Assembly (NCBI GenBank): GCA_021234155.1
Contig: JAJEKV010000014.1
Location: 10,001,563-10,065,562, forward strand
Source: Isoetes taiwanensis
Taxonomy: Eukaryota > Streptophyta > Lycopodiopsida > Isoetales > Isoetaceae
DNA: 64,000 bases
Direction: 5' to 3'
The position numbers were made by a program, and so were the translations under genes. Below the pieces are notes generated by a model that worked only from the letters and a program-made list of their open reading frames with translations, was not told the DNA's origin and did not search any database. This document shows positions 15,367 through 63,902 of this stretch, one piece after another (the stretch's first letter is position 1; the number at the start of each line of letters is the position of its first letter).

Positions 15367-15401
15367 GTCCCTCCCCTTATTTCTCTCCTGCTTACCTATC
15401 T

Positions 15402-19796: not shown

Positions 19797-19810
19797 GAAG
19801 TGTTGAATCT

Positions 19811-38410: not shown

Positions 38411-38413
38411 TTT

Positions 38414-38432
38414 TGGAGGTCCTACCGAGATT
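38414..38432 (+). other. Primer-binding site of the gypsy element (tRNA-Gln type)
   Basis: TGGAGGTCCTACCGAGATT begins 3 nt after the 5' LTR. Its complement, AATCTCGGTAGGACCTCCA, matches the 3' end of plant tRNA-Gln as I remember it, with at most one or two differences. This assignment should be checked against a tRNA set. Confidence 0.65.
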
Positions 38433-38450
38433 TCCACCTGGTTTTCGATC

Positions 38451-39725: not shown

Positions 39726-40386
39726 AGTTCTAAAGTAAGCATAGATCTCCTCACGCTTCTCAGAATTGCACCTAGCTATAGAGAGAAAATATTGAGGTCT
39801 AATAATGTTGAACAAATTTCATTTGCTGATGTGCATGAGACAGAGAAGGTTATATTAACTCAAGAAGAAAAAGATCCAGGTGCCTTCACTTGCTCAGCTA
39901 GTTTAGGTAACTTGCATTTATCTAGGGTCTTGCTAGATGGAGGCTCTCCACTAAATGTCATGCCTCAAAGATGTAATGAAGAAATGTGGTCTTCTTTGTC
40001 ACTCAACCATCACCGTCATATTAAGGTCATTCTCCAATGCTAAGATAAAACCCATAGGACTAGTGACAAAGGTGCCAATAGAAATTGAAGGTATAATTGT
40101 TGAGGCCAGTTTCATAGTTGTGGCTTTTGAAGATAATTGTGATGTGACTGACATATATGACTTGTTGTTGGGAAGGAGATGGTTATCCACTGTAGATGCT
40201 AGACCTGTCTGGTCCAAAGGGCAGTGTACCATTTCAAATGGAGCAAGAACTGTAACTCTATACAACAAAACAGGTGATGCTAATCTGTACAACTTTATAG
40301 AACAAGACATGTTGATTGAAGATGAGCCAGGTGTGTTAAAATGCGTTTCGCTTTTGCAAACCAATAGAAATCATACCTACATTTAG
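39726..40386 (+). pseudogene. Gypsy protease region, frameshifted
   Basis: Right after the gag stop, the same frame continues through LRIAPSYREKIL and EEKDPGAFTCSASLG to LLDGGSPLNVMP, the retropepsin active site in the DGGS form common in plant gypsy elements. Near 39990 the frame shifts, and the domain continues in another frame with KIKPIGLVTKVPIEIEGI and YDLLLGRRWL, the usual C-terminal protease motif. At least two indels disrupt it. Confidence 0.75.
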
Positions 40387-40397
40387 GTGACCTTGGC

Positions 40398-41588
40398 ATG
40401 GAAGCAAATCTCAATAAAGGTGTGTTGTGGTTTGATGGAGGGATTTCAATCAAATTGAATATAGCATCTTCTGCAGCTGTGATCAGAAACTGTGCCAATA
40501 AACTCTTATCCAAAGTTGGTAGAGTGCATGAAGGAATCACTTCAAATATGGCCGAATATAAGGCACTCATAGCTGGCTTAGAAGAATCTTTGGCTTTAGG
40601 TTTGACTGACGTATCTATCTTTGGTGATTCTCAATTGATATGCACAAAGCAGTCCGGAGAATATCAGACCAAAAACCAAGACATGTCAGAGCTCAAAGAA
40701 AGGGTACTGCAACTTCTAAGCAAGTTCAAGGCTTGGGAGATCAAACATATACCTAGGGAGGAGAATTGTGAAGCAGATGCACTTTGCAGAACCGTGCTCC
40801 TTGACTATTTGGCTGAGGGAGCTATAAATGAAGATGAATTGAACAAAGAAGATGCAACACAACTTTATCCTATTCTGGTGATAGATGCACAGCAGGAGAA
40901 AGAGGTAAAAGAGTTAACCATCAACAAAAATGGACAGGTAAGAACACTTTTCCTTGGAGATCTTTTTGATAGCAAAGATGAGGCTTCCTTAAAAATTTTC
41001 TTTGAGAACTGGAAAGATGTATTTGCCTGGGATTACACAGAATTAGTAGGAGTGAGGACTGATATCTGTGAATTTGAAATAAAGATAAAAGAAAATGCTA
41101 AACCTGTAATGCAAAAACTCAGAAGAATAAATGCATCACTGCTTACCTTGATCAGAGAGGAATTATTGAAGATGAAAGAAGCTGAGGTTATTAAAGAGAT
41201 AACAAATCCTGACTGGCTGTCTTGCATTGTTCCAGTAGAAAAGAAGAATAAGAGCATTAGGATTTGTATAGATTACAGGGATCTAAACAAGGCCACTATT
41301 AAAGATTGTTATCCATTACCATTTCTAGAAGAAGTGTTACATGCAACTGCAGGGAAAGAAATATACTCTTTTCTAGACGGATTTTCAGGTTTCAATCAAA
41401 TCAAGATAAAAGAGGCAGATCAAGCTAAGACCTCTTTCATAACCCCTTGGGGTACCTTTGCCATGATGAAAATGCCATTTGGCTTGATGAATGCATCTGC
41501 TACCTTTCAAAGAGCAATGGATTTCAAAGCATGCCTATGTCAAACTTTAGAGTTTTCTTGGATGATCTATGCCTGGGAACTTCTCTAA
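40398..41588 (+). CDS. Gypsy pol: archaeal-type RNase H plus N-terminal reverse transcriptase
   Basis: Residues about 1-135 are an archaeal-type RNase H with all four metal ligands visible: D in WFDGG, E in MAEYKALI, D in FGDSQLI and D in EADAL. RT follows from about residue 215, with VEKKNKSIRICIDYRDLNKA, YSFLDGFSGFNQIKI and MPFGLMNASATFQRAMD. The frame is lost near 41525, before the catalytic YVDD-equivalent block, which continues in the next frame at 41447-42253. The RNase H placed before RT, rather than after it, is noteworthy. This is one part of a broken polyprotein. Confidence 0.85.
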   Translation: MEANLNKGVLWFDGGISIKLNIASSAAVIRNCANKLLSKVGRVHEGITSNMAEYKALIAGLEESLALGLTDVSIFGDSQLICTKQSGEYQTKNQDMSELKERVLQLLSKFKAWEIKHIPREENCEADALCRTVLLDYLAEGAINEDELNKEDATQLYPILVIDAQQEKEVKELTINKNGQVRTLFLGDLFDSKDEASLKIFFENWKDVFAWDYTELVGVRTDICEFEIKIKENAKPVMQKLRRINASLLTLIREELLKMKEAEVIKEITNPDWLSCIVPVEKKNKSIRICIDYRDLNKATIKDCYPLPFLEEVLHATAGKEIYSFLDGFSGFNQIKIKEADQAKTSFITPWGTFAMMKMPFGLMNASATFQRAMDFKACLCQTLEFSWMIYAWELL

Positions 41589-42240
41589 CCAAACACATGG
41601 AGTTGCTGACAATGACAATGGAGTTGTGCAGGAATGGTGGAGTGTGTTTGAATCCAAAGAAGTGTGTATTTCTCTGTTCTAAAGGCGAATTGCTAGGTCA
41701 TGAGGTATCTACTCAAGGGATCAAAGTATCTGAAGGAAAAATGGAGGCTTTGAAGAAATTAGCTCCACCTAAAACCCTAAAACAGGTGAAGAGTTTCATG
41801 GGCTTGACAAGTTTTTTGAGAATGTATGTGCCTAACTTTTCACACATGATAAGTCCTTTGGCAGCTCTGACACGTGTTGGCAAGTATAATAAGAGTGAGA
41901 GCAGATTTATTGCAATAGAATGGACAGATGAATGCCAAGCTGCATTTGACCTGTTGATAACTTCCATATGCCAATCAGAGATTTTGAAACCACCAGACTT
42001 TGCTCAACCATTTCAGGCATATACCAGTGTCACTAGCAAAGCTGTAGGCATAGCACTCATGCAGAAACATGGGATAATATATTTTGCCAGCAAAATTTGG
42101 TCTGATGCTGAGAACAGATACCCTAGAATGGAAAAAAGTGCAGCTGGAATAATGTTTTTTCTGCAAAGGCTTGGTCATATAGTTCAACACAATGAGGTGA
42201 AAGTAATGATACATCAAAATCCTATTCCCATCTTTGTTCG
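41520..42240 (+). pseudogene. Gypsy RT C-terminus and degenerate RNase H
   Basis: It continues RT in a second frame with NFRVFLDDL (catalytic FLDD), NPKKCVFL, GHEVSTQGIKVS and VKSFMGLTSFLRMYVPNFS. The gypsy RNase H follows but reads AYTSVTSKAVGIALMQ where active enzymes have YTDAS, and VMIHQNPI where they have TDH. Both of those Asp ligands are lost, so this domain should be catalytically dead and may only have a structural (connection-like) role. Confidence 0.8.
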
Positions 42241-43560
42241 AAAACTCGAGTAAGGCTAAATTATGTAGATGGGCATGCAAGATCACGGGATTACAATTTA
42301 AAGGTTAGCACTGTCAAAACAATTAAGAGTCCTAGTGATTATTTGACCAATAAGGTGTTTGAGTTTGAGGATTTTAATGGTTTAAGTACTGATGAAGTGT
42401 GTGACATTGCTACTAACCTTGTGCTATCTAGTAAGATGCAAGAGGACTGGCAGGATGAAATCATCAAGTTTCTCAAACATGAAGAGGCACCAGAAAACTT
42501 TACAAGCAGTCAGTTGAGAAGATTCAAAGAAAAAGCAAAAACATACAGAATGATTGGAGAGGTATTATGTAAGATTGATCAATCTGGTGTTCTACTAAGG
42601 TGTGTTGATAGGTCAGAAGCTGAGTTGATTCTAGAAGCTTGCCATGAAGGAATTTGTGGAGGCCATTATGCAGCTGATACAACTGCAAAGAAGATACTCA
42701 GGTCTGGATATTACTGGCCCAGCTTGTTTAAAGATTGTTATGAGACTATCAGGAGATGCCATAAATGCCAGATACATGGAAAAAGAATTCTTCAGCCTGC
42801 TGCCTTGACTAGCATCACGTCTCCAGGTCCATTCCAAACTTGGGGACTAGACTTCATAGGGCCTATACATCCAAATTCTCCCTCTCAGCATGAATACATA
42901 CTAGTGGCAACAGATTTTTTCACCAAATGGGCAGAAGCTGTCCCATTAAGACAAGCAAATGCTTTAACAACTACTAGGTTCCTCCATGAAAACATTTGCA
43001 CTAGATTTGGTATTCCTCTGAAAATAGTTTCTGACAGAGGCACACAGTTCATAAATGATGTGATCAGCAACCTCCTAAAAACCTTGAAAGTAAAGCATGT
43101 GAAAAGCTCAGCATACTACCCTCAGGGCAATGGCCAAGCTGAATCCACCAACAAAGTTCTAAAAGGTATTCTCAAGAAGACAATAGAGGTACATAAAAAG
43201 GATTGGCACCTTAAATTGCATGATGCACTTTGGGCATATAGAACTACAGTTAAAAATGCTACTAATCATACTCCTTTTGCTCTTGTCTATGGTGTTGAGG
43301 CTGTTGTTCCAGTGGAACTAGAGTTGCCTTCCTTAAGGTTAGCTCTAAAGATTCAAATGCAGATGGAGGAAGCATACAAAGATAGGTTTGATAGGTTGCT
43401 CCATCTAGAAGAAGAGAGATTTGAAGCAGAGAATGCCATCTTGCTGAAGAAGGCAAAAGATGCAACAGCATTCAAAGCCATTCACAAATTGCAAGGAAGT
43501 TTCAAAGAGGGGGAACATACAAAATCTGTGGACAAGCAGGTACAAACTCTTACTTCCTAG
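42238..43560 (+). CDS. Gypsy integrase region
   Basis: The frame is open from about 42238 (RVRLNYVDGHARSRDY) with no required ATG, so it is the end of pol after another frameshift. The zinc-binding HHCC domain reads HEGICGGHYAADTTAKK and CHKCQIHG. The catalytic core has D in WGLDFIGPI, D in IVSDRGTQF and E in QAESTNKVLKG, giving a complete DDE triad. The C-terminal part includes HTPFALVYGVEAVVPVELEL. The expected role is insertion of the element's DNA with 5-bp duplications, as seen for this copy. Confidence 0.87.
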   Translation, partial: SKTRVRLNYVDGHARSRDYNLKVSTVKTIKSPSDYLTNKVFEFEDFNGLSTDEVCDIATNLVLSSKMQEDWQDEIIKFLKHEEAPENFTSSQLRRFKEKAKTYRMIGEVLCKIDQSGVLLRCVDRSEAELILEACHEGICGGHYAADTTAKKILRSGYYWPSLFKDCYETIRRCHKCQIHGKRILQPAALTSITSPGPFQTWGLDFIGPIHPNSPSQHEYILVATDFFTKWAEAVPLRQANALTTTRFLHENICTRFGIPLKIVSDRGTQFINDVISNLLKTLKVKHVKSSAYYPQGNGQAESTNKVLKGILKKTIEVHKKDWHLKLHDALWAYRTTVKNATNHTPFALVYGVEAVVPVELELPSLRLALKIQMQMEEAYKDRFDRLLHLEEERFEAENAILLKKAKDATAFKAIHKLQGSFKEGEHTKSVDKQVQTLTS

Positions 43561-47206: not shown

Positions 47207-47234
47207 TCATTAGGGCGGATTTGGGGTCTCAAAA
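47207..47234 (+). repeat. Left terminal inverted repeat of the 9.4-kb element
   Basis: About 28 bp match the right end in inverse, apart from one extra G. Scattered similarity (CCACGTCA, GCTTTGCGCCTC against TTTTCGCTCC) continues for about 70 bp more. Confidence 0.8.
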
Positions 47235-47862
47235 TGGCTCATATCTTGAGTTAAAGATTTCCACGTCAGATTTGCCACGACTAATCAGCTTTGCGCCTCT
47301 TTTACGAAAGTCAGTATTAGCTGGCAGGTAGAAGAATGAGCATGCTTACTTGGCATCCACATGGCGTATTTTCATAGGGGATGCCTGCGCTTTTGTTGCA
47401 ACCATTTTAATGGCTCGTATTTTTCGGGAATCACTTCGCCGTCCAAAATAATGGTGACTTTGACTGCCTACTGTCAGCGTCACCAACTCCCTTGTCAAAT
47501 TTTGGCGCCAAACTTCTGTACTATCACTCCGGCGCCTGTAGTGCATCCTCTCCGCCTTCACTCCTCATCTGCAATCCATGTCTCCTATAATTTCTGTGTT
47601 CTCGCCTCATTTACAGAACTCCCAAGGTGAAGAAGTGGGAGGTTTTGTCTCAATAGTATGTTGCCATCAACGAGGGGCGAGCATAGAGTTAAGCGACAAA
47701 GACGATCAGACGTGCGGACACATTGGATAGGTAGGATAAAAGAGTTCAAGTTGAATTCTAGCGGCTGGAAAGTGGAAAGTATAACAATATGACATGCATA
47801 TACCCCTTATGATGTGGCCAAAGAGCTAATGTCGTGCCCGCAAATGGTAACCACCTTAATCG
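47235..47862 (+). other. Left non-coding part of the TIR element
   Basis: Open frames here (for example 47361-47630) show no recognisable protein. It may contain the promoter for the first gene. The first palindromic hairpin follows at 47863. Confidence 0.35.
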
Positions 47863-47929
47863 GATCACACGACGCGAAACTGTCTGTTAGCTATTTAAGT
47901 GCGTAGAAACAGTTTCACGTCGTGTGATC
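47863..47929. repeat. Palindromic hairpin 1 of the TIR element
   Basis: The left arm GATCACACGACGCGAAACTGT (47863-47883) and right arm (47909-47929) pair over 21 bp with one mismatch, with a 25-nt loop. It is the longest and cleanest member of the hairpin family in this element and lies upstream of the first ORF. Confidence 0.9.
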
Positions 47930-48087
47930 TCCTTATCTTTTCATTTCTTTCGTTGACACGTGTTTACAAACAAATTTATTGTGCAGGTTTATGTTTATCA
48001 GACGTCGTGGATGTCGTTCCGGCCGAAAGCATTAGTAGTGTCCTTGTCGTGTATCACATAGACATTGGAATTGTCCTTTTCTAAGGT

Positions 48088-48831
48088 ATGGATGTCGTGA
48101 CCTTGCGGGGTATAGGCATCTGGTTTTACGGACATGATTACAACGTAAAGGTCAGGAAACCGAGCTTGAGGCTGGTTGAATTGCCCCCTTTAAGTGAACT
48201 TTGTAAGCCACAGACTAATGAGAACAATGTAATTGCAATGAAGAAAGGCCTGACTGACGAGGTGCAAGCGGGAATGTCTGAAAACGGAGGCGTGAGGATG
48301 AGTTTCAAAATCTTCACACCGTTTGAGGTATTTGCTAACATATTCCAGATGGCGCAGGAAGTTCGAAAAGCTCTGAAGACATATACGTGCTTCCTCCCCC
48401 CTGCCGATTTTGTGGGTGGCTTATTTTTGGTTCCGACCTGGGATGTTCGATTCCACGAATCATCCGGTCAACTAACACAGTGCCGCGTAGTTAAGTCCTC
48501 CTTTAAGTTCAGATACTTTCTTCCAAAACAATATTTATACGTTAATTGTCAACTAGAACGAAGGAAACAGAAAAAGAGAGGCTGCACAACTTTTTGGGAG
48601 CCGTTTGAGGACCATAACAGACACTCCGATGCGGTAGATATTCGAGTATGGCGATGGGAGGAAGTCATTTATACAGCCACCATGGAAATCGAATGGCCAT
48701 TATCAGAGCTAAGAGTGCTAATGGAGACATATCTGAAGTATCTGATAGAGATTCTCCTCCTCCGACCATGCGTAACAGAAGCTGCAGAAAACAATGACAG
48801 ACGGTGGGAGAAGCAGCTCGGCAGTAAGTAG
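48088..48831 (+). CDS. Unknown 247-aa protein, first ORF of the TIR element
   Basis: ATG 48088 opens a 247-codon frame with no family I recognise. The middle has [19 protein letters not shown] and [19 protein letters not shown]. The C-terminal part is rich in Trp, Glu and Leu ([19 protein letters not shown]). No signal peptide or membrane span is evident. A canonical-looking intron (GCA|GTAAGT at 48823/48824 to a pyrimidine-rich tract and CAG ending 48959, 136 nt) would join it in frame to the histone H3-like ORF that follows. It could therefore be the N-terminal part of a fusion protein. If unspliced, it overlaps the next start (48794) by 38 nt. Confidence 0.55.
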
Positions 48832-49455
48832 GGAGGTGCACTCCGGTTCGGAGATGGAGGATGAAAATGTGAGAGATCGCCGAGCAGAATATGACGCCAG
48901 ATTAATTATTGGGCAGCTGCCTCTTCTTGCTCTTCCTGCTCCTCCTGTGGATGCGCCAGGACCTTCAAATCAAAGGAGGAGGCCCAATGCTAGAAAGGAG
49001 AAGGCGAACAAAAATGTGAGGAGACAGCCGGAAGAGTCGGCCGAGCAACAGCCTGCAAATGCTGAGGTGGGTGAGGGTAGTGGCCGGAAGCGGAAGACGA
49101 AGCCTGGCATTAAAGCGCTTCGTAAGATTAAGAAGTATCAGAAGAGCACTGAGATGGTCATTCCGCGGCTCCCATTTGCGAGGCTCGTGAAAGAGATTCT
49201 GCAAGAGTGTGGTGCGATATATCATACCAGTTACAGAATTCAAGCAACTGCCTTAAATGCTCTTCAAATGGCTTCGGAAGCAGTTGGTGTCGGTCTGTTC
49301 GAGGACTCGCAGCTTATAGAAATACATGCCAAGCAGGTGACTGTCATGCCAAGGACATGCGCCTGGTCTTACGCATAAGGGATCCTGAGTACTATGGTCA
49401 AAATTTTATGGCTGAATACAACAAAAAGAAAGACCCCCTAGAAAAAAGGCCGTGA
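48794..49455 (+). CDS. Divergent histone H3-like protein with N-terminal extension (one frameshift)
   Basis: The C-terminal half is a histone H3 fold: [54 protein letters not shown] and [12 protein letters not shown] align with H3 helices alpha-N to alpha-2. The alpha-3 segment, [15 protein letters not shown], follows in the next frame, so one base is missing near 49350 (the frame as read stops at 49378; the restored frame ends at 49455). Loop 1 (about 12 residues between KEILQE and the alpha-2 region) is about four residues longer than in canonical H3, a feature shared with centromeric H3. The canonical H3 tail lysine motifs are absent. Instead there is an extension of about 90 residues that is acidic, then basic (RKRKTK before the fold). 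The start is uncertain: ATG 48794, or splicing from the upstream ORF. Confidence 0.8.
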
Positions 49456-49593
49456 AGTGCCTTTGTGTTTTTTTCATATGTATAATATTCTTTAATATAA
49501 TGGCTTTCCTTATAAGCTTCATCTCTTAGTCCATTTCTTTCTTAGAAGCCTAGGTTCGCACTTTGTATTTTTTTTTTTTAAGGTTATACGTGA

Positions 49594-49662
49594 GGATCAC
49601 ACGACGCCAACAAGCATTGTGCTTTTTTTTTTGCACATACTAGTTTTTGCGTCGTGTGATCC
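49594..49662. repeat. Palindromic hairpin 2 of the TIR element
   Basis: GGATCACACGACGC (49594-49607) pairs perfectly with GCGTCGTGTGATCC (49649-49662). It lies between the H3-like gene and the acidic-protein gene, with poly(T) runs on either side. Confidence 0.88.
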
Positions 49663-49809
49663 AACCCTAATCCTAACCTTAAAATGTACGGACAAATCTC
49701 CCCACAACGGCTATGTCCCCTTTCATAATTGACAACGGCTACTTGAGTTCAGAAGTGACAGCGCCTTACCGCTCCGAAACATCTTCTTGCATTCGTCGTC
49801 TGCTTCGCC

Positions 49810-51261
49810 ATGGATTGTTATGTGAAGTTCTTGGAATGGTATGCATCTGTCCCACATGACAACGAGGAAGTTGTGCCGACTGCGATTTATCCATTCTATT
49901 GTAAGGAGTTGGACATCATGGGAAACAATAGCGAGCTTAAATGCTATCGCGAGGTTGCTTTAGCTTTCAACCGGACCGCTTGGTCTCATCGGACGTCCTT
50001 TGCAGATGTTCCTGGGTCGTGGATTCCAAAACCAGCTCTAGAGGAAGCGGCTTCCCATTTGCAAGCAGCGAAGACGTTTTTCAAGAATGCTGTGCAGTGG
50101 GCTCCTCCTGGCTGCGTCCTTGTACTTAAGAAGGTAACTTATTTCTCTTTGCCGTTTGCATTCGCTAGTTATTGCATTCTGCTCGGCCAAACCGAAGATA
50201 CACTGGAAACAATGAAATCTTTAAGCCAAGGGGGGTTAGTTATGTGTGATGATGCTGACTATGACGTAGAAATGGAGATAGATCTACAAGAAGAAGAGCA
50301 AGAATCTAGGAGTTTTGGCATCGACGCACTGGCCTTAGGTGAACCAGAGGAGGAAGATGATTCTGAAGGTGATGAGGATGAGGATGAGGATGAGGATGAG
50401 GATGAGGATGAGGATGAGGATGAGGATGAAAAGAAGTTGTCTGACATAACGCCAATTTTAGTGGAAGGCAAAGAATACTTATTGCTAAGTGATATACTGA
50501 GGAACCCGTCTTTGTTACGAATGTGTGCTAGGGAAGACGAGCTTATCAGTACCTTGGCCGAATGGGTAAACCTAGGCCTAGATTTTGAAGAGGACTTGGA
50601 CAAAGAGATATTGGAAGTGTCTTCTTATACCGGCAATGCTATAAAGCTTAAAGAAGCCTATGAGAGGCTGGAGACTCGATATGCTCAAGAAGAGGCGAAT
50701 CTGCCAACGGAAGAAGAATTCCAGCGTCTCCATGCAAAGCTGCGAACAGGATCTACAGGTTTGGCAAGCCCTTCAGTCAATCGCGGCAGCATAAGCCTCA
50801 TGGATGAGGAGAAATGTGAAGAAGATAACCTTGAGGGATCTCATTTGTGGGAAGTAAATGATTTTTCTTGCCGACATGCACGCGTGGGACAGGAAAGATT
50901 GAAGGACTCGACATTGTTACGATATATTTCAAGATTCGTTAATGGGGAGATTATCGTCTTCAGCAGAACTTTCAGTCCAAAAGGTGCAAAGTTTGTCTAT
51001 TACATCCGTGCATTATGCATGTTCGGGAACCATTCCCAATTGGCATCAAACACTGAAAGGGTGATAGCAATTCAGCGGGATGTTGTGTTACAATATTTTG
51101 ACGACCAAGCCGGTCTGCGGGCGAGCAATATGTTAAATTTTTTAGCTGCTGGCTTGACTCACCCAAGGTTGGAAGCTGGGGTCGATAACATGGGAGTCAT
51201 TGCCTTGTTGGATCAGTGCGGCAGGGAATTGAAAGAGCATGAAATTGACGACGAAGCTTGA
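49810..51261 (+). CDS. 483-aa protein with long Asp/Glu tract (candidate histone-binding protein)
   Basis: The frame opens at ATG 49810 (MDCYVKFLEWYASVP). I recognise no family. From about residue 145 the protein becomes acidic, with DDADYDVEMEIDLQEEEQE and then an uninterrupted Asp/Glu run at about residues 182-212, encoded by a (GATGAG)n repeat (about 50365-50430). A helical, charged segment follows (SSYTGNAIKLKEAYERLETR). The C-terminal 120 residues look like a folded domain (FVYYIRALCMFGNHSQLA, VLQYFDDQAGLRASNMLNFL). Long acidic tracts are typical of histone chaperones such as nucleoplasmin- and NAP-type proteins. With an H3-like gene next door, that role is an inference and not a family assignment. 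A donor-like AAG|GTAACT at about 50133 means an intron is possible. Confidence 0.6.
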   Translation: MDCYVKFLEWYASVPHDNEEVVPTAIYPFYCKELDIMGNNSELKCYREVALAFNRTAWSHRTSFADVPGSWIPKPALEEAASHLQAAKTFFKNAVQWAPPGCVLVLKKVTYFSLPFAFASYCILLGQTEDTLETMKSLSQGGLVMCDDADYDVEMEIDLQEEEQESRSFGIDALALGEPEEEDDSEGDEDEDEDEDEDEDEDEDEDEKKLSDITPILVEGKEYLLLSDILRNPSLLRMCAREDELISTLAEWVNLGLDFEEDLDKEILEVSSYTGNAIKLKEAYERLETRYAQEEANLPTEEEFQRLHAKLRTGSTGLASPSVNRGSISLMDEEKCEEDNLEGSHLWEVNDFSCRHARVGQERLKDSTLLRYISRFVNGEIIVFSRTFSPKGAKFVYYIRALCMFGNHSQLASNTERVIAIQRDVVLQYFDDQAGLRASNMLNFLAAGLTHPRLEAGVDNMGVIALLDQCGRELKEHEIDDEA

Positions 51262-51362
51262 AAAATTGGAAGTTATATATTTTCCAACTTATATCAGTAA
51301 AATTACTTATGTATAGATTGTATCACCGAAATTATTAATAAAAAATATTTTATTTGTATTTA

Positions 51363-51426
51363 TTCACACCACGCGAAGTACATCAGTCTGATTTTCTGAC
51401 GAACACGAGCATTCGCGTCGTGTGAT
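51363..51426. repeat. Palindromic hairpin 3 of the TIR element
   Basis: The left arm TTCACACCACGCGAA and right arm TTCGCGTCGTGTGAT pair with mismatches. The loop contains GTCTGATTTTCTGAC. It lies in the spacer after the acidic-protein gene. Confidence 0.8.
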
Positions 51427-51483
51427 ATTTCTCTGGAAGAAATGAAATATTATTGGAAAAAAAACAATTACTTTATTTATTCC

Positions 51484-51545
51484 TCACACGACGCCAGAAG
51501 CAACGGTCTATTTTCCTGACCGACGGCATCCTTCGCGTCGTGTGA
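51484..51545. repeat. Palindromic hairpin 4 of the TIR element
   Basis: TCACACGACGCCAGAAG pairs with CTTCGCGTCGTGTGA. It lies 58 bp after hairpin 3 and just before the promoter of the first coiled-coil gene. Confidence 0.8.
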
Positions 51546-51569
51546 CTCAAGCTACGACGAAATCTATGT

Positions 51570-51577
51570 TATAAATA
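51570..51577 (+). promoter_or_regulatory. TATA box of the first coiled-coil gene
   Basis: TATAAATA lies about 110 bp before the ATG at 51680. It is followed by a leader rich in CCTTCCGCCTTC repeats, as in many plant Pol II 5' leaders. Confidence 0.65.
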
Positions 51578-51679
51578 GAAGACCTTCTATCTTGCCTTCG
51601 ACCTCCGATCCTCTTCCGCCTTCCGCCTTCCGCCTTCTGCTCATTTTCCACTTCCGCCTTCTGCATTCTCATCGCTCCG

Positions 51680-52078
51680 ATGACATCTCCATCTTCCTCT
51701 AGCAAGCGACCACGCCAAGATAGCACTCCCCCACGCCAAGAGCTCCCCGTGGACATCACCCTTGCAGTGGTGATGAAGAGATTCAAGGAGATCCACGATG
51801 AAAACAGCCATCTCGTCACCGAGAATATCGAGGCGGTAGACAGATTAGCCTTCACGAGGGCGCTGCTGCATGAGCGAGACATTGAGCTCGCCGAAACGTT
51901 CGCCATGTACCAAGAGGCGACTAGCCGAAGGGCCGAGGCAGTTGAAACTGCCCACAATATTTCGCAGGCCTTAGAAGAAATGGAGAAGAAGCTCCGAGCT
52001 GCGGAGGATGAGAATGCAGCTTTACCGCTTCAGCTAGAGGATCATGAAAATCAGCTAGAGGATCATGAAGATCCCTAG
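51680..52078 (+). CDS. Short coiled-coil protein 1 of the TIR element (132 aa)
   Basis: ATG 51680 follows a TATA box and a CT-rich leader. After a Ser/Pro/Arg-rich start, the motif ELPVDITLAVVMKRFKEI (about residues 21-38) is shared with the two following genes (IPAEILSQVLVKEIKN; LPSDIVLGVLMKRLKK). The remainder is predicted coiled coil with charged heptads (AVETAHNISQALEEMEKKL) and ends in a duplicated QLEDHE motif. No known family. The shared N-terminal motif and gene structure suggest a tandem paralogue family, perhaps oligomerising partners of other element proteins. Confidence 0.6.
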   Translation: MTSPSSSSKRPRQDSTPPRQELPVDITLAVVMKRFKEIHDENSHLVTENIEAVDRLAFTRALLHERDIELAETFAMYQEATSRRAEAVETAHNISQALEEMEKKLRAAEDENAALPLQLEDHENQLEDHEDP

Positions 52079-52084
52079 CCATTG

Positions 52085-52420
52085 TATCTATGTATTTTTT
52101 GCTTCAATGAAAAGTTTTCTCTATTTTTTGCTTCTATCTATTCTCTTGTTCAAATGTATGTTTTGTTTTATTAAAAGATCGCACGACGCGAAATGCCTTG
52201 CTTGCAATTAGGTAGCAATCAATGGATTTCGTGTCGTATGATCTCCATGCCGTTCTATTATTTTTTGCTTCAATGAGAAGTTCTATCTATTTTTTGCTTC
52301 TATATATTCTCTTATTCAAATGTATGTTTTGTTTTATTAAAAGATCACACGACGCGAAATGCCATGCTTGCAATTAGGTCGCAATCAATGGATTTTCCGT
52401 CGTATGATCTCCATAATGTA
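52085..52420. repeat. Direct duplication containing hairpins 5 and 6
   Basis: A block of about 166 bp, with TTTTTTGCTTCAATGA, CTATTTTTTGCTTCTAT and ATGTATGTTTTGTTTTATTA, occurs twice in tandem. Each copy ends with a hairpin (GATCGCACGACGCGAAATGC at 52177 and GATCACACGACGCGAAATGC at 52343), with right arms ending at 52243 and 52409. The hairpin and the sequence 3' of the gene duplicated as one unit. Confidence 0.85.
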
Positions 52421-52821
52421 CACCTCGTTGTATGTACAAATTCCTGATTTATTAATAGAAAACTATCTGTAACACAAACATCTAGCTAGATTATGTGATG
52501 TCTTGCAGGTAAATGCGAATTAGTCATATCTAGGGTGAAAGCACGTGGCATGCGGATGACAACGTCTACTCACATACGTGGCATGCGGATGACAACGTCA
52601 TGCCAAGGACGTGGCATGCACTTCCACAATAATACCGTCTTTTGTACGACCAAAGGATTGATTAGATGGATCTGCATACCGTACGGCTAGGATCTAACGG
52701 ATCCGATGATGCGAACATAGGCTACCGTTGCCTAATTGCATGCTATAATTTCGCCTCGTAGGATTATTACACGGACTTTATCGGTACTCGCAACCGTAGA
52801 TTCCAACGTATCTGTAGTTTC

Positions 52822-52829
52822 TATATAAA
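52822..52829 (+). promoter_or_regulatory. TATA box of the second coiled-coil gene
   Basis: TATATAAA lies 93 bp before the ATG at 52922, followed by a pyrimidine-rich leader (CTCCTATCCGCCATCTGC). Confidence 0.7.
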
Positions 52830-52921
52830 ACGTCGGATGCCATTCTGTTTTCTCCTATCCGCCATCTGCTGTTCTACCACATCCGCCCTCAGCCATCTCC
52901 CCTTCGTTCTCATCTCTTTCA

Positions 52922-53287
52922 ATGGCCTCCAGCTCCAGTTGCATCCCTGCCGAGATTTTGTCTCAAGTTCTGGTGAAGGAAATTAAGAACATTCGTGATG
53001 AAGCTGAGGAACAGATCCGCCTTCTGAAAGAAAAGAATGATGAAGACGTTGCCAAGCTGGTTGCGGCAGAGGTGATTCTTGCGCGCGACAATCAGCGGGC
53101 TGCCATAGACCGCGAATTGCGCGCCACGAGATCTAATCTACAAGAGAGGCTTAGGGCCGCAATCGAAGCGGGCGAGGCTGCCCGAGCTCAACTAGATGAG
53201 CGGAAAGATAAGGTTGCAGAGTATGAGAACATGGTTGCAGCGCAGGCAATCATGTTGGAGGAGCAGAAAAAAATTATCAGATCATAG
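52922..53287 (+). CDS. Short coiled-coil protein 2 of the TIR element (121 aa)
   Basis: ATG 52922 starts MASSSSCIPAEILSQVLVKE, carrying the family motif right after a Ser-rich start. The rest is a nearly continuous charged helix (EEQIRLLKEKNDEDVAKLVA, ERLRAAIEAGEAARAQLDER), typical of a coiled coil, with no other domain. The size, promoter layout (TATA box, CT-rich leader) and N-terminal motif match the genes on either side. The function is unknown. Confidence 0.65.
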   Translation: MASSSSCIPAEILSQVLVKEIKNIRDEAEEQIRLLKEKNDEDVAKLVAAEVILARDNQRAAIDRELRATRSNLQERLRAAIEAGEAARAQLDERKDKVAEYENMVAAQAIMLEEQKKIIRS

Positions 53288-53435
53288 GCATCGGGCTCCT
53301 CCTAGAGGGGCCCGTCTTTTTTTAATGTTTGTAATTATTTTGTTTCGCAATGGAAAAAGTTTTTCAAAAATGTGCCGAATATTACGTTTCCTATTTTTAA
53401 TTTTCAATATCAGTGGTAGAGAGAATGACAAGACA

Positions 53436-53453
53436 GATCACACGAAGTGAAAC
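53436..53453. repeat. Decayed hairpin arm 7 of the TIR element
   Basis: GATCACACGAAGTGAAAC matches the left-arm consensus with few changes. The right arm is hardly recognisable (TCGCGTGGTA near 53487). It lies between coiled-coil genes 2 and 3. Confidence 0.55.
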
Positions 53454-53632
53454 CCTTCATAAGCTTTTAAAGCGCGTCTGCAGATCTCGCGTGGTATTAT
53501 ACAGTGTACTTAGAATAGTTAATGTGTTCCAGCGGACAGTACCATTAATGTGTTCTAGCAGACAGCCGACAGAATCCGCTCGACACGTGCGACAGCAACC
53601 GACTGTATTTAGTATGTTCAAGCGCTAATATG

Positions 53633-53640
53633 TATAAATT
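53633..53640 (+). promoter_or_regulatory. TATA box of the third coiled-coil gene
   Basis: TATAAATT lies 88 bp before the ATG at 53728, followed by a CT-rich leader, the same layout as its two paralogues. Confidence 0.6.
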
Positions 53641-53727
53641 GAGGTCCTTGCATTGTGCTCCTTTCGCCGGTTAGAGTCTTCGCTCCCTTCACTTCTATAA
53701 TCTTAACGTCCCTCCCATTTGTCATCT

Positions 53728-54179
53728 ATGGCCTCCACATCCTCTACCGCTGATAGGGAAAACGTCCGCAGATAGAACTCCCTTCTGACATAGTGTTGGG
53801 TGTTCTAATGAAGAGGTTGAAGAAGCAAGACGATCTTCTAAAGAGGAATGCCGTTACAATTCAGCAGAAAGAAGAAGAAAATGAATTCAACCTTCTCATG
53901 CTTCGTAGCCAGGAGAGGCATATCAGGCGGTTGAACAGAAAACTGGACAGGAGGGGAAGGTTATGCCCCAACAACTGCACTGAGGTGGTTATGACAGCAA
54001 CGAGGTTGCTAATTCAGGCAGAAGAAAACGTTGTGGCAGTGGGACAGGAGCGGGACATGTACAAAGAGATGGTAGACAGATTGGAGGAACGTTTGGATAG
54101 GGTGATTGCTGGCTTGAGGAGAAGAGACGAAGACGAAGATGAGGACCAAGCTGATGATGATGATGATGAAGAGATCTGA
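53728..54179 (+). CDS. Short coiled-coil protein 3 of the TIR element (frameshift near start)
   Basis: ATG 53728 reads MASTSSTADRENVRR and stops. The family motif LPSDIVLGVLMKRLKK continues in the next frame from about 53775, so one base has been gained or lost near 53770, unless translation begins at ATG 53793-53808 within the motif. The C-terminal part is charged coiled coil (NEFNLLMLRSQERHIRRLNR, ERDMYKEMVDRLEERLDRVI) and ends in an acidic tail of Asp and Glu. It converges with, and overlaps in antisense, the decayed end of the minus-strand transposase-like gene. Confidence 0.6.
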
Positions 54180-54189
54180 ACCCTCTCTA

Positions 54190-55640
54190 ATGGAATGGGG
54201 AAAATGCCATGGAACTTGGGATCTTTTTCTCCTCTATTAGGCGCATTTGCTTGGTTAAGGGACAAGGTTGAAACAATCTTTTCAGTACTTGACTTCCTTG
54301 CATGATTGCAGTACAGACAACTTTTGCATGTTCCTTGTCCTCCTCCACTTATGTTGTACATTGCTTTCTCAGTTTTTAAATCAGACGCCAAGTGAAAAAT
54401 TACTTTGTAAAATCCATAGTGATCTACTTGCAATTTTTCCCCTCCCTCGAATCTAGATATTAGACTCGGGATGTCAATTTGATTGAACACCCATTTCAAT
54501 ACCTCGTGGGTTTCTTTCTGAACTTTAAAGAGACCTAACCACCAGGTGTCGTCTTCAGATTGACATGAGAACCATTTTTCGGCACGCTTCTTCTCCTCGT
54601 CCGTCACCTCTACATCTTTTTTATTATTCTTGTTGCTCTTTGATTTAGCATGTGCAATTGCATTCTCAATTGCTCTATTCATGATGACAACGGATACCCT
54701 CTCATACTTCTCAAACTTGGTCAGTTCCATTTCATCCAATTTTATGCAAACTTCAATCTCACCATTAGTTTTACGCGAATCTGTTAAGTCATAATATTTG
54801 ACAATGAATTGTAAGAGACTAACCAGGTCAACCCAAAGATTATTGCGTTCATTCATTCCAACTATATCACAACAATCCTTGCCATTCTTATCTTTTATGG
54901 CTATGGAAGGACCAGCACATTCAACGTGGTGCATCTCTCCTAATATGGCATACACCATCTTTGTCCTAGTAACCCTTGTATTCTCAACAATTTGTGGACG
55001 TGGAGCGAATACTTTTTTTGTGCCCATTCTTTTCAACGCTTCGTGGAATGGCTTGAATAGAGAATGGTAACCAAGCCTACTTATGCCTACATCATCACAA
55101 ACAGTCTGTACATTTGTCGCTTCTAGCTTCTTGTAGATCTCTCCTAGTACCATTTCCAATACCATCTTTTTGAGAGAAGAGTTGTAGGGCTGACAAATCA
55201 TGTCCACTATCTCCCTGTTTGTCGCTAGGTTCTTCACTACGTAACCAAGATTGCTTCTAGTTTTCTCAGATCTTGATTGGCCTTTGCTAGTGTTGTAAAC
55301 GGACCTTATGGCCGTGACCCTGCGCCTGAATGCACCTGATCCAAACTTCAGTTCCTCTATCGGTCGAAAGTGCTTCTTCCTTTCAAATAGAAGCCAAGGG
55401 TGTTGTTTTCTTCAAATTCTTTAACCTACATTGAAGCCCAAAGTTTGCTCTTTCGAGCTCTTGGATCTTTTCTTGCAGCTGCCCTATCACCAATTTGGAC
55501 TTGTCCGCTTCGTATCTCAAAGAGGTTTCCCTCCCCAAGCCGTCATTCCTTTCCTTCATTACAGTAGAGTAATGAAGCGAGAGAAAAAAGAGCTGCTGGT
55601 TTAAGTTATAATTCTCTTGTGACAATCGGAAGCAGCTCAT
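54190..55640 (-). pseudogene. Transposase-like gene with N-terminal coiled coil, frameshifted and truncated
   Basis: Read leftwards from 55640. An 85-codon coiled coil (LVIGQLQEKIQELERANFGL) is followed by a frame change near 55400 (KQHPWLLFERKKHFRPIEEL, no ATG needed), then a long open frame down to about 54190. Features include CIKLDEMELTKFEKYERVSV, a likely first catalytic strand with Asp, FHLASDLKTEKAMYNISGGG with a second Asp, and a Cys pair CKSCLYCNHA. The layout resembles a transposase-like family with an RNase H fold that I remember from invertebrate and fungal genomes. The third acidic residue and the C-terminus appear missing: the frame runs into antisense of the coiled-coil gene. 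It is the best candidate for the element's former mobility gene. Confidence 0.55.
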
Positions 55641-55729
55641 CTCAAGGAACTGATTCGATTCCGAATGCCTTCATCCTCTCTCAATCTCTCACAATATCCC
55701 AGGAGGCCAGAGTTACCGTCACCACAAAA

Positions 55730-56071
55730 TCAGACTAAACTTGAAACGTCCCGAAATGACGGTTTCTTGCCACTCAATGGATCCAATGGATATAAATTGC
55801 CATCCGCCCAGATGTCGACACTTTTTGAGCCTGCAAGACGCAACACGTCGAGGTCTAAGTTCTTATTTTTTAGACCTCGTTTTTTGCGATTGAAGACTGG
55901 AGCATATTCGTGAGTCAGTTGGATCCTTATCCACACATCATTTGGAGCTTCCATACTGCGTGGATCGCACGGCGCGAAATTAAGGTGTACAATTTGTATG
56001 CCCCAGCCCAATTCGCTTCTTGTGAGCCGAACATCCGTACTAGCCTCGTTTTTGAGATTTACAACATGCAT
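55730..56071 (-). CDS. Hypothetical 113-aa ORF on the minus strand of the TIR element
   Basis: It reads MHVVNLKNEASTDVRL, then VWIRIQLTHEYAPVFNRKKR and VDIWADGNLYPLDPLSGKKP. It has a protein-like composition but no family I recognise. It lies upstream of the transposase-like gene on the same strand and could be its first exon or a separate small gene. A decayed hairpin arm (GATCGCACGGCGCGAAA, 55963-55979) lies inside it, which argues against strong conservation. Confidence 0.3.
   Translation of the reverse strand: MHVVNLKNEASTDVRLTRSELGWGIQIVHLNFAPCDPRSMEAPNDVWIRIQLTHEYAPVFNRKKRGLKNKNLDLDVLRLAGSKSVDIWADGNLYPLDPLSGKKPSFRDVSSLV
55963..55979. repeat. Decayed hairpin arm 8 of the TIR element
   Basis: GATCGCACGGCGCGAAA matches the arm consensus at 15 of 17 positions. 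No clear partner arm was found nearby. Confidence 0.55.
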
Positions 56072-56588
56072 ATGGAAATCGAAAAGTCCATTCTCCTACA
56101 ATCCATGCTTTTATACATTAAGCAAATTCAAATTTCGAATTGTAGGGGGCGGGAAGCCTGTATTGGGATGAAGTAAAGATCCCGATTTACGAACTTTTAA
56201 GGCGCAGTCGCAGCGCCTCGAAATGAAAGTCTGATACAAAGCTTCAATCTACACATTCAAATTTTGAAATGTAGAAGGCGGGAAGCTTGTATGGGCATGG
56301 CCTCTAAATGAAAATAGCACAAGACAAGAATCGGTGACACGCACGCTTGGTATCTGACAAACCAAGAGACACCGTCATGTGTTGCCAGTATGCTATAATG
56401 CAAGTGGCTTTTTAGAAGCGCCACGTGTTGCATCAGTCTGTCTGACAACCAACAGAATTAAATACATATGGCAAATAAATATTCTGGGAGAATAGTCCAA
56501 GGAAATCTGTAATTATGAGAGTTTGGTATCCTAGGTGGCATGGGAAAAAAGGAGCGAAAATATGACGTGGAATGGCTGATAAGAGGCT
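56072..56588. other. Right non-coding part of the TIR element
   Basis: It contains a two-copy repeat (AAATT(C/T)(C/G)AA(A/T)TGTAG(G/A)... with GGCGGGAAGC) at about 56130-56160 and 56255-56295. No gene was recognised. Confidence 0.4.
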
Positions 56589-56616
56589 GTTTTGAGACCC
56601 CAAATCCGCCTAATGA
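56589..56616 (-). repeat. Right terminal inverted repeat of the 9.4-kb element
   Basis: In complement it reads TCATTAGGCGGATTTGGGGT and on through CTCAAAA, matching the left end with one indel. It is followed by the putative 3-bp duplication CAT. Confidence 0.8.
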
Positions 56617-58347: not shown

Positions 58348-60138
58348 TTGATCTACGCGGCGATGGAAGGAGCAGCTATGGCGCAGTGCATTCAAGGCAT
58401 GAATGCAATGGGCAACAAATGGGGAAATGAAGGATTGAAACATGCAAAATTGGGGCAAATTTTTAAGCTCAGCTGTTGTCATTCATCTCGCCAAACGGAA
58501 TACAAGAGGAGGAGGGGATTTGTTGTCATAAAATCAGTGGCAGAGTCGGCATCTGTGACAGAGAAAACGGTTTTGGAGGGAAGCAGGGAGCAAGAAAATT
58601 TAGCAAGTGTACTGGGAGAGGTAGAAAGTGCCAAAATCCGGGCCCCATCTCAACTAGAGGAGCGTGAAATATCGAAATCGAGAGGAGGAAATATACCATG
58701 CGATCCGCTGAGGGTTGTGATGTTCCAGGTGAGTTGAAATTAGGGCTTTTTGATTGGCAGCTGTAAAATGGTGTACATGTAAATTAGGGTTTCAACTGGG
58801 AATCGTGGAGGAATCCATGCTGGTACGATGTGCTGATGAAGAGCCCAAAGGATCTGGCAGAAGCTGGAGTGACGGATATATGGCTGCCACCACCAAGCCA
58901 CTCGGTTGCGCCACAGGGTTAGTGCAGGACTGACTTACTCTGTGATTCTTGAAGTGCTCTGTTTTTAGGTCTCTGTTTCAATTTTTGCATAGCCAGGGTA
59001 CATGCCAGGCAGATTGTATGACTTGGATTCATCAAAATACGGCAATGCGGAGAAGCTGAGGCAATTGATAGACGAATTCCATGCCAACAAGATCCGGTGC
59101 ATAGCAGATGTGGTGATAAACCACCGCTGCGGCGATTCGCAAGACAGCAGAGGAGTGTGGTGCATATTCGAAGGAGGGACGCCGGACGAGAGGCTGGATT
59201 GGGGTCCTTGGGCCATCACCAAAGACGATTACCAGTTCAGCGATGGCTCCGGCGCTCCCGACACCGGCGAAGATTTTGGGGCAGCCCCCGATATCGATCA
59301 CACCAATCCCAAGGTCCAGGAAGATCTTAGCAACTGGTTGAAATGGCTCAAGGAATCCATCGGCTACGATGGCTGGCGATTTGATTTTGCAAAGGGCTAT
59401 GGCGGAGAATATGCAGGCTTATACATCGATAAAAGCCAGGTTGAATTCTCCGTTGGAGAGGTATGGACTACTCTCAATTATGGCGACGATGGTCCTCAAT
59501 ATAACCAGGATAGCCATCGCCAGGATCTGGTGAATTGGGTTCATGCTACTGGAGATCGATCCACTGCTTTTGATTTTACCACCAAAGGAATTCTTCAAGA
59601 GGCTGTAAAAGGTCAGTTTTGGAGGCTCCGAGACTGCAATGGTAAACCCCCTGGCATGATTGGATATTGGCCTGAAAAGGCTGTTACTTTTATCGATAAC
59701 CATGATACTGGATCTACACAGAAGCACTGGCCTTTTCCTTCTGACAAGGTCATGCTTGGATACGTTTACATTATCACCCATCCTGGTATTCCTTGCATTG
59801 TAAGTTCCTTTATTACTTTTCCCTTTTCCTCAGGTTTTTTTCTTTTCGACTGAAAGGGTTAAATTTGATCTGTGCAGTTTTATGACCATTACTATGACTG
59901 GGGTCTCAAGGAAGACATTAAGAAATTGCTGGAGGTCCGTCACAGCAATGACATTAAAGCCAACAGTCAGTGCCGGATTGTGTGTGCAGAGAATGATGTT
60001 TATGTTGCTTATATTGATGAGAAAGTAGTGGTGAAGATGGGAAGCAGATTTGATATTGGCGATCTGGCTCCCAATCCTCAAGAATACAGAGTCGCAGCAT
60101 TTGGCACTGACTACTGTGTCTGGGAGAAGTCTTTGTAA
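58348..60138 (+). CDS. Alpha-amylase, GH13 family (four exons)
   Basis: An endo-acting starch hydrolase cutting alpha-1,4 links. The exons I infer are 58348-58728, 58788-58917, 58997-59799 and 59878-60138, all GT-AG and in frame, giving 524 aa. The catalytic domain starts at VMFQGFNWESW (about residue 124). Conserved regions are [18 protein letters not shown] (nucleophile Asp, about 300), VGEVW (acid/base Glu, about 325) and FIDNHDTGS (transition-state Asp, about 407). The C-terminal beta domain ends YCVWEKSL, as in plant amylases. The sequence is closest in memory to the secreted AMY1-type clade, but the first 120 residues are unusual: Met-Ala-rich start, few acidic residues before [10 protein letters not shown], basic RRR. 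They resemble a plastid transit peptide rather than a signal peptide. The true start may be ATG 58363 or 58378. Confidence 0.93.
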
Positions 60139-61773: not shown

Positions 61774-63902
61774 CTAAATTGGACAATCCTCATTGTCAGG
61801 CCTTACTAGCACAAAGTATCCTTCCTTGATGTCCTCAAAAGGATCCCACTCAAGAAGATCAAACCACTTCGGCTTTGAGGCCTTGCTTCCCACAAACCAC
61901 TTGGAGCCATTGTTAGGACCCAAGTCAACTTTCTTAGATGTACTTGCTCCATGAGAACCCTCCCATCTAGACTCTGGTAAGAACCCGTCTCTCAGCTTTC
62001 CCCCGCATGGTTGTTCTGTTTCTAAGCATGTCACAACTTTCTCCCAATAATTGATTAGGGAGTCCATGTGATTTTTCTTCAGGGTGAAGGTGTGCTTTCC
62101 ATTTCGAACATCCTCCCAGTGCGTATATAATTCTTGATGCCCCTCACTAATTGGCTAGTGTCTTTAACAGTCTTGAAGGGAGGAAGTGGTTTTGGCTCCC
62201 CTCTAAGAATAAAAACTTCACCTGTAGCTCCCTTGCCACACTCGATTCCTTGTACAGGCATCCACAACTTATCACCTGGTCTCCATTTATATTGCATGAT
62301 CGGTATTCCATCCATGACCCAAAACTTGAACTGAAGTGGCTTTGTGTGTCCTATCAACTGATCCTTACCATCTAGCAAGTATCCCTCGACAAATGATTTC
62401 CAATCTGTAACCTCATCCATCAAAAAAGCCATTGGGTTGGGGTCAATGCAGCTCTCAAACACATCCATTAGTTCAGGGAGACTAGTCATGTTTTCTCTCT
62501 TGAGCTTGATAGAGAAAGTTCTGAAGAATGCATCTATATCATCATGTGTATACCCAACCATCATGAACCCCACCTTCACAGTCTTGAATACTCCCACTGT
62601 TGTCAAGTATGACATTGCCCCACACATCCATCTATTCTTGTTTTCTTTCCAATAGTTGTCCAATTGAACATATAGCTCCTCTAACAGTTGTTTCTCAAGT
62701 AAGGGGAACTTATCCCAAGTCCTCCTTGTTTCTTTCGACACCTTGGATATGAGCTCCTTTATCGGCATTCGGTAACAAAGCGGTTGAGCATCCATCAAAG
62801 CCTCAAATATGGGTGCTGAGGGATAATACATCATCACTTCTATCGATCCTCTCTCTAGCGTTCTCAAGCACTTGAAAATAGAACTTACATGGAGATTCAG
62901 ATCATCCCTCCATAGATCAAGTATAAAATAACTATAGGTGCCAGTTCCATGCCCATGTGTCAAGATACCCGCCAGGCTTACTTTCATCTGAAAAGCGTTT
63001 TGACAACGCTTGGGCAAAGGATCTAGCTTTGGGAAGAATGTTCTCCGCTGCCAATACAGTTGTCTACATGATATTTGGTCTAATTGGTGATCTGCAAATT
63101 GCTCCCTGATTGCCATTCTTTCTTTCTTTATTGCAGTTGATGCAAGTGTATCTTTTAATTGAATGCAAGTGTTGCACTTTGAGAATGGCATATGTTGCAA
63201 GACACATGCGTTTGAGAAGTAGTTTTCCATAATCTGCTGAAAGATGATTGAGAAAGAGGCCGACCTCCAGTAGTTTCTAGAATGATGTTGATCTCTTTAA
63301 GGCACTCTTTTTGTATATAATGTTGTGGCAACACCTTTTGGACCACTCTTACACCGTGCTCGTTCGCCTTTGACTTATGCGGCATAGATTGAGACATGTA
63401 TCTCACAAAGCTCTCGAAGACTGCAATGGCCTTCAAAGTATTTGCTCTAGGGTTCAAAGTCAGTGCATTGCCATGCAGGAACAACCTATGCCCTTTTCTG
63501 ACATGCTCCCAGTATCTGTAAAATGATGTCTTGCTCAGGCCAAAAATCCATCTTAATGCTCTCATACATACCTTCAGGCCTCTCAATTGATAAAGCAATA
63601 TTCCTGTGTATTTCCACAAGGTCATCCATACTATACTGAACTGTGCAATCTAGAGTGCAACACTCTTGTCCCCTAATTGCTTCTAGGTTTTCTTTGGTTG
63701 GTGCCATACTTTCCATCCTTTGTAAATATCTGTCACTTTTAGCCCTTTTGGGCACCCTTGGCTGCCTTTTATGAAACATGTAGCGCCTCTTCCTCGTAAT
63801 CAAAGGATGCTCATCCACCACCAAACCTTCCACATTGCCTGGGCTAGGCCTCAGGGTATCTACTTCAGTTGGGCCTTCTAGGTTCTCACCCTAATTGGCC
63901 AT
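61774..63902 (-). pseudogene. DUF7869-like transposon-encoded gene, frameshifted
   Basis: Read leftwards in four overlapping frames (63902-63486, 63625-63155, 63230-62079, about 62105-61774), joined by single-base shifts. Segments include RKRRYMFHKRQPRVPKRAKS, ECCTLDCTVQYSMDDLVEIH, FGLSKTSFYRYWEHVRKGHR, HMPFSKCNTCIQLKDTLAS, HGHGTGTYSYFILDLWRDDL and GYTHDDIDAFFRTFSIKL. The (G)HTHDDID-type motif and Cys pair recall the DUF7869 family, many of whose members appear mobile-element derived and probably transposase-like. This is from memory and not firm. The first codons (M-A-N) are followed by an in-frame stop, so this copy is inactive. Confidence 0.55.

Follow-up and report, generated by a model that had tools for sequence, protein, structure and literature searches.

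A histone H3 variant carried by a decayed multigene DNA transposon of Isoetes taiwanensis with a RAG1/Transib-like transposase

Why should a plant DNA transposon carry a histone gene? The question is raised by a stretch of 64,000 nucleotides of Isoetes taiwanensis (GenBank assembly GCA_021234155.1, contig JAJEKV010000014.1, positions 10,001,563 to 10,065,562 of the forward strand; hereafter the window), in which a preliminary description made from the letters alone had placed an element with terminal inverted repeats at 47207-56616 and a gene of the histone H3 fold between its ends. Searches of the host assembly (1.658 Gb, 1110 contigs) and comparison with sister copies bore out both: the segment is a copy of a transposon, its inverted ends are 26-27 bp long, and the H3-fold gene is genuine. 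The best-supported reading, tentative and at a little under even confidence, is that this copy has decayed from a multigene DNA transposon whose DDE transposase is RAG1/Transib-like, and that the H3 variant supplied by the transposon itself would counter chromatin silencing.

The element is delimited by a perfect 21-bp inverted pair at 47214-47234 and 56590-56610, extending to 27 and 26 bp. The left repeat (47208..47234, plus strand) was defined by repeat search, sister-copy comparison and the genome count of the exact end, and the right repeat (56590..56615, minus strand) has one base fewer than the right ends read in other copies. The extended ends read CATTAGG(G)CGGATTTGGGGTCTCAAAA. The exact 27-mer end is present 766 times in the host assembly (379 forward, 387 reverse) and the reversed-pattern control 0 times. 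In the genome end searches, 40 left and 40 right ends were scored, the best of 1247 and 1285 candidates, respectively, and the copies were spread over many contigs. Among the 100 places listed, paired ends were spaced by about 0.1, 0.6, 4, 6.5, 7-8.5 and 11.6 kb, 4 kb being the commonest spacing, and the fuller copies were about 11-12 kb. Two 4-kb elements read fully have kept the ends and lack H3, and one of the two has clearly kept the transposase start. This series is the usual pattern of a transposon plus its non-autonomous derivatives, and the search for other copies through the ends thus upholds the mobile-element view.

The CAT flanking the ends, tried as a target duplication, was rejected when copies were compared. 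Because the preceding base differs between copies, the element terminus is CATTA (47208), and the flanking CAT is therefore no target duplication. The comparison of copies proposed earlier gave no duplication: repeats of 3-10 bp beside the termini were found in 0 of 16 end pairs (chance expectation at 3 bp, 0.25), and a 2-bp repeat in one of 16 (1.0 expected by chance). Transib elements make target duplications of 5 bp. With one mismatch allowed, the match at the window ends was 5 bp long (GCATT/ACATT) and that at one other pair 4 bp long, but the 5-bp duplication hinted at by the window alone was not borne out in the other 15 pairs. Two copies on different contigs, L024 and L028, have identical eight bases before the left end and may belong to a duplicated segment.

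The H3-variant remnant of the window (48794..49378, plus strand) was delimited by open reading frames (ORFs), Pfam, PDB matches and sister copies. It matched PF00125 with E=1.6e-25, and the best 60 solved-structure matches listed were all histone H3 chains. The fold is present, the N-terminus is deleted and the C-terminal frame is lost, an H3-like C-tail continuing in another frame to about 49457. The fuller protein was read from sister copies, the best 20 of the 40 left ends listed, window excluded, which were aligned with the window copy. H3 frames or fragments were present in 13 of the 20, several of the others losing element similarity early; the H3 of copy L023 matched Pfam Histone (PF00125) at 1.4e-29. 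Sister-copy H3s with a long open frame have about 270-290 amino acids (aa), a MARTKQTAR-IHPGG start (tail-start peptide ARTKQTARIHPGG), a long tail with many charged residues and then the H3 fold. The MARTKQTAR start is the same as in host H3; residues 1-8 (ARTKQTAR) are kept and, when the tails are compared position by position, K9 is replaced by I, S10 by H, T11 by P and K14 by V. By their fold these proteins are H3s, and they depart from canonical H3 (K9, 136 aa), with which they share 55-64% identity. The long loop 1 of the preliminary description is real, with four residues more than canonical H3 in the window copy and the same insertion in the rows of subfamilies A and B, but by eye it is absent from family C.

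Among the 25 starts found in the fetched loci by similarity to one subfamily-A start, residue 9 is I in 23 and T in two, and three have a stop at Q5. The MARTKQTARI start is present in both subfamilies A and B, and as a pattern it had 314 genome matches (control 0). From 100 matches listed, 23 differing at 4-11 of 30 bases were chosen by eye, and the nine of these that were fetched led to the long-tailed families C and D, which are more distant. An H3 fold was read 3' of five fetched starts; two were scanned, and both matched Pfam Histone (family C 1.7e-25, family D 7.8e-27). Another of the nine, L085, has the MARTKQTARI start and no recognisable H3 tail. The family-D H3s L088, L090 and L094 have very long charged tails, the same start and partly broken frames, and the fold read in L090 and L094 terminates in HIKGERP. 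The canonical-H3 search, in its best 150 of 9022 candidates, returned at least 15 full-length genes with 96-98% identity, followed by 135 folds with 71-86%; many of these folds lie in stop-free open frames of 400-567 aa. The genome thus contains further H3s, many long-tailed, and many of them probably keep K9; mobile H3 variants with long tails, of both K9I and K9 types, may have radiated within one genome to hundreds or perhaps more than 1000 copies. Two side observations concern H3 starts: three MARTKQTARK starts lie about 5.8 kb apart on one strand at G000:C217:120970-132589, possibly a tandem histone gene cluster, and the public H3 P0043, which may be a pseudogene, starts with MARTKQHARM, with M at residue 9.

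Selection across copies, a check already suggested in the preliminary description, was estimated as the ratio of nonsynonymous to synonymous divergence (dN/dS) from 17 chosen open H3 frames, 12 of subfamily A and five of subfamily B; the choice of open frames may bias the ratios to constraint, and decay after insertion biases them the opposite way. Between A and B, the fold had a mean dS of 0.526 and dN of 0.109, a ratio of 0.21 (60 pairs), and the tail a ratio of 0.49 (36 pairs). For the pair L046 and L033 the fold ratio was 0.21 (bootstrap 0.11-0.39) and that of the tail beyond its start 0.43 (0.27-0.68); 0.16 was obtained for the first 21 codons, too few for firmness. By these ratios the H3 fold is under purifying selection between the subfamilies.

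The transposase remnant of the window (54170..55411, minus strand), delimited by ORFs, sister copies and PDB and Foldseek matches, has a RAG1/Transib-like core, and the N-terminal part (55383..56071, minus strand) appears in the ORF list as two pieces, 55383-55640 and 55730-56071. By eye, the remnant retains the first cysteines and two acidic residues, the first and the second, and lacks the final E. A C-terminal ORF from one sister copy matched RAG1 in all 15 of its best PDB hits (E=0.012-0.083), and Foldseek matches at E<=0.001 were only to RAG1 (two entries) and HzTransib (6oem, 6cil, 6pqr). The ORFs of L055 and L023 contain, by eye, CKSC/CLYC and YLHIFWAH..SAQGMEKSHK, corresponding to C(2)C and H(4)H. 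According to the available part of PMC12730594, C(2)C and H(3-4)H between the second D and E form a motif common to EnSpm, Mirage, Chapaev, Transib and RAG1. An RNase-H-like DDE core together with C(2)C and H(3-4)H is what distinguishes the CMCT or RAG1-Transib supergroup, and both were read here, the core from fold matches of a low-confidence model and the RAG1 match of one ORF, the motif by eye; the 5-bp duplication of Transib proper was exact in none of the 16 end pairs, and the window pair agrees at four of five positions. Judged from sequence and model, the transposase looks RAG1/Transib-like. A search of the same genome for relatives of P0121, in which 61 of 3822 candidates were scored, gave 68 matches of 32-51% identity, the longest open frames reaching 931 aa, and a 565-aa transposase ORF had three relatives of 33-44% identity in ENA/Logan contigs. 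The first protein search with a transposase piece gave no match. Transib-like proteins have already been reported from plants, as stated in the text available of PMC9435367.

The H3 genes are also found beside the transposase. The H3 search of the genome gave 206 matches (141 of 8033 candidates scored), many of them partial or stop-containing, of which 129 places entered the linkage test; the transposase search gave 94 matches, of which 89 places entered. An H3 was present within 25 kb, with side and strand as expected, at 34 of the 89 transposase places, the shifted controls having a mean of 0.11 and a maximum of 1. Furthermore, 3' of a family-C H3 on C205, a 2.5-kb stretch contains a same-strand homologue of the acidic protein of the window copy (31% identity over residues 215-455, E=1.7e-23 against that 2.5-kb stretch). 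The order of H3 and then acidic protein therefore seems, from this one locus, older than the split of the H3 families. No other H3s were detected within 30 kb of the divergent transposases, in small samples of low power: once split pieces and places already known from family A had been set aside, the 68 matches left 58 places, which were compared with 23 family-C/D starts, 135 other H3 folds, 22 hand-picked of 100 listed K9 starts and two placeholder entries.

Alignment with the sister copies identified the window copy as an internally deleted derivative. In 12 sister copies the match breaks at element position 1523 and restarts just beyond after about 0.3-0.4 kb of extra sequence; at this junction (48730..48731) the H3 start (MARTKQTAR...) of the sister copies has been lost. 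In five sister copies the match restarts past window position 54170 after 0.8-1.1 kb of extra sequence, and at the corresponding junction (54170..54171) the C-terminal part of the transposase has been lost. With H3 start and transposase end deleted and the H3 frameshifted, the window copy is dead. The acidic protein, the three coiled-coil ORFs and the broken transposase of the preliminary description are all present in the ORF list. ORF1 (48088..48831, plus strand; ORF list and sister-copy alignment) encodes a protein without assigned identity, its 3' end cut by the deletion near 48730. The acidic protein of 483 aa (49810..51261, plus strand) is the one with a homologue at the family-C locus; its structural model (predicted local distance difference test, pLDDT, 31.9) was useless. 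The coiled-coil ORFs follow on the plus strand at 51680..52078, 52922..53287 and 53808..54179, all three from the ORF list and sister copies, with paralogy judged by eye; the 5' part of the third is broken in the window and open in L026.

The pattern GATCACACGACGCGAAA had 12 matches in the window at <=3 mismatches (0.03 expected), every one inside the element. At <=4 mismatches the pattern and its inverse formed seven paired palindromic units of 65-67 bp and two lone half-sites in the window and nine pairs in L023, and in nine copies, window included, 43 of the 52 adjacent plus/minus pairs were spaced 49-50 bp. The units are mostly intergenic and, for three genes, stand 133-159 bp upstream of the start codon. 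Four of those in the window are placed relative to genes, upstream of ORF1 (47863..47929), of the acidic gene (49595..49661) and of coiled-coil ORF 1 (51482..51547) and at the transposase start (55963..56027), and the others are at 51362..51427, 52177..52243 and 52343..52409; those at 51362, 51482 and 55963 were found at <=4 mismatches. The half-sites are at 52749..52765 (minus strand, 4 mismatches) and 53436..53452 (plus strand).

From the established family, its ends, copy number and structure, the co-location of H3 with the transposase and the constraint on the H3 fold, a function may be proposed. The inherited cargo comprises the long-tailed H3 variant, the acidic protein, ORF1 and the three coiled-coil proteins, and the palindromes are mostly intergenic. 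The H3 variant would enter nucleosomes in or around element copies; the acidic protein may be its chaperone, and the coiled-coil proteins may bind the palindromes. With a tail lacking K9 and other modifiable lysines, element chromatin would be harder to silence via H3K9 methylation. The K9I change suggests interference with this methylation, and it may also, like K9M, keep the H3K9 methyltransferase occupied. In the part of PMC5030085 available, K9M H3 of fission yeast traps Clr4 and blocks H3K9 methylation, a K9M peptide binds G9a with S-adenosylmethionine, and S10D relieves the K9M effect; K27I is likewise described in an excerpt of PMC6061380 as inhibiting PRC2. Such trapping is, by analogy, the bolder sub-case of the anti-silencing reading: host H3K9 methyltransferases would bind an element H3 tail that they cannot methylate, and the silencing mark would be lost at the element or nucleus-wide, which we regard as doubtful. 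Other mobile parasites of plants are known to target this pathway: geminivirus TrAP inhibits KYP (available text of PMC4606454), and VANC proteins, by binding repeats of their own elements, induce loss of silent marks on specific copies (sections available of PMC10398659).

Several results weigh against the anti-silencing account. Residues 10-11 are H-P and not S-T, and S10D relieves K9M trapping, so that methyltransferase binding is uncertain; also, a literature search for a direct K9I effect found none. K9I is not general among the H3 starts of the genome: MARTKQTARK, with K9 kept, had 1051 genome matches (control 0), and the family C and D starts, having been selected by the K9I pattern, give no independent evidence for I9 conservation. 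Seven of the 20 fetched copies were without an H3 frame, as were the two 4-kb derivatives, and H3 is therefore not needed in cis; a requirement in cis is ruled out by these two derivatives. Within subfamily A the ratio was 0.34 for the fold and 0.96 for the tail (66 pairs each), and within B 0.74 for the fold (10 pairs) and 0.55 for the tail (3 pairs); the A tail and B fold values are as expected if copies decay after insertion. For the transposase, scans of the element ORFs gave no Pfam family above the cut-off. Pfam RAG1 was matched by one ORF only, below the cut-off, and by none in a later scan; the 565-aa ORF reached RAG1 only at E=0.51-0.88, and an eight-row transposase profile (A1) retrieved no RAG1 from the PDB. 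The AlphaFold model was poor (mean pLDDT 46.7), and its Foldseek matches had template modelling (TM) scores of about 0.2 and root-mean-square deviations of 24-26.

A different use of the same proteins, rather unlikely to our minds, is packaging: the H3 variant and the acidic and coiled-coil proteins would build a special nucleoprotein on excised or donor DNA, as a transpososome scaffold or a chromatin mark for target choice, and not act against silencing. The cassette is inherited with the transposase and, at one locus, across deep divergence, the palindromes are repeated along the element, the long loop 1 and the lost canonical tail change nucleosome surfaces, and the missing target duplications hint at an unusual insertion route. 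Set against this, about 4 kb is a repeated size among the end pairs listed, and neither of the two derivatives read at this size has an H3, so that the proteins would have to act in trans.

Passenger capture, in which a host H3 was picked up and amplified with the transposon and has no function for the element, is improbable and was already disfavoured. It has a precedent in the hAT of the fungus Pseudocercospora fijiensis (in the portion available of PMC6710886), and the many partial or interrupted H3 matches would suit it, but the fold ratio across subfamilies, an identity to canonical H3 too low for recent copies and the joint retention of H3 and acidic protein at a far-diverged locus argue otherwise.

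A centromere-directed element, its H3 mimicking CENH3 and guiding it to centromeres, was raised by the preliminary description and has very little to recommend it. The extended loop 1 and the alpha-N of family C, EIRHFQ, which we take to resemble CENH3, point that way. However, in the tree the element H3s stood apart from CENH3 (a short alignment with long branches and two CENH3 rows), by eye they have no CENH3 loop-1 tryptophan, and the copies are on many contigs. The earlier alternative of a remnant of a histone-carrying DNA virus genome, to which the unassigned genes beside the histone and the size of the fuller copies might be attributed, is scarcely credible given the RAG1/Transib-like transposase, the inverted ends, the derivative size series and a Pfam scan of nine element ORFs, several of them unassigned, that found no viral gene or family. 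The other earlier alternative, a transposon with an acquired chromatin cassette, is supported by the many same-ended copies, the RAG1/Transib-like transposase, the non-autonomous derivatives and the conserved H3-transposase arrangement.

If the anti-silencing reading is true, a constrained core histone supplied by a transposon would be a weapon unlike the demethylase-type, SET or VANC genes that transposons are known to carry against silencing, and the arms race between transposon and host would be waged with histones. Whether a parasite can rewrite nucleosomes would become testable, and a natural H3K9I-type histone would be at hand for heterochromatin study. A RAG1-related transposase that apparently inserts without target duplication would likewise become available.

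Elsewhere in the window, another transposon-like gene with DUF7869 (PF25273, E=1.8e-40) is present at 62079-63890 on the minus strand, preceded by an unassigned ORF. By eye, 7592-20167 and 38379-43560 contain ORFs like those of long interspersed nuclear element (LINE) and Ty3 retrotransposons, and ORFs at 24285-26858 and 58993-59853 resemble COG1 and alpha-amylase, respectively; the latter lies about 2.4 kb beyond the end of the element.

Among known systems, RAG1 and the CMCT transposons (EnSpm/CACTA, Mirage, Chapaev, Transib, ESTA, Plavaka) are likened to the element by the fold matches to RAG1 and HzTransib and the C-terminal RAG1 match. In the passages available, a RAGL element makes a 5-bp target duplication (PMC9435367), and TET-bearing EnSpm duplicates 3 bp and ESTA TA (PMC12730594), whereas none was found in the 16 pairs here. 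The element differs from this group also by its multigene chromatin cargo and its CATTAGGG termini. K-to-M/I mutant histones, as far as the sources available describe them, share a hydrophobic residue at a methylated lysine after a kept ARTKQTAR; in contrast to them, the element H3 is natural and transposon-borne, and residues 10, 11 and 14 onward are also changed.

VANC is not a histone, unlike the element H3. Otherwise the VANDAL/VANC system of Arabidopsis resembles the element in its extra element-encoded proteins and repeated sites in non-coding parts (PMC10398659, available sections). In our literature search for transposon-encoded histones, the fungal hAT was the only case found among the papers available: this Dothideomycete element with a captured H3 likewise has H3 within a DNA transposon in hundreds of copies, and in P. 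fijiensis all copies except the original are inactivated by repeat-induced point mutation (RIP), according to the part available of PMC6710886. Unlike that H3, the element H3 is divergent and constrained, with its own tail and partners. The nearest functional parallels are the TET/JBP or SET transposons of fungi and oomycetes, which in the text available of PMC12730594 carry a chromatin or DNA-mark gene aboard; their cargo is an enzyme, whereas the cargo here is a structural histone.

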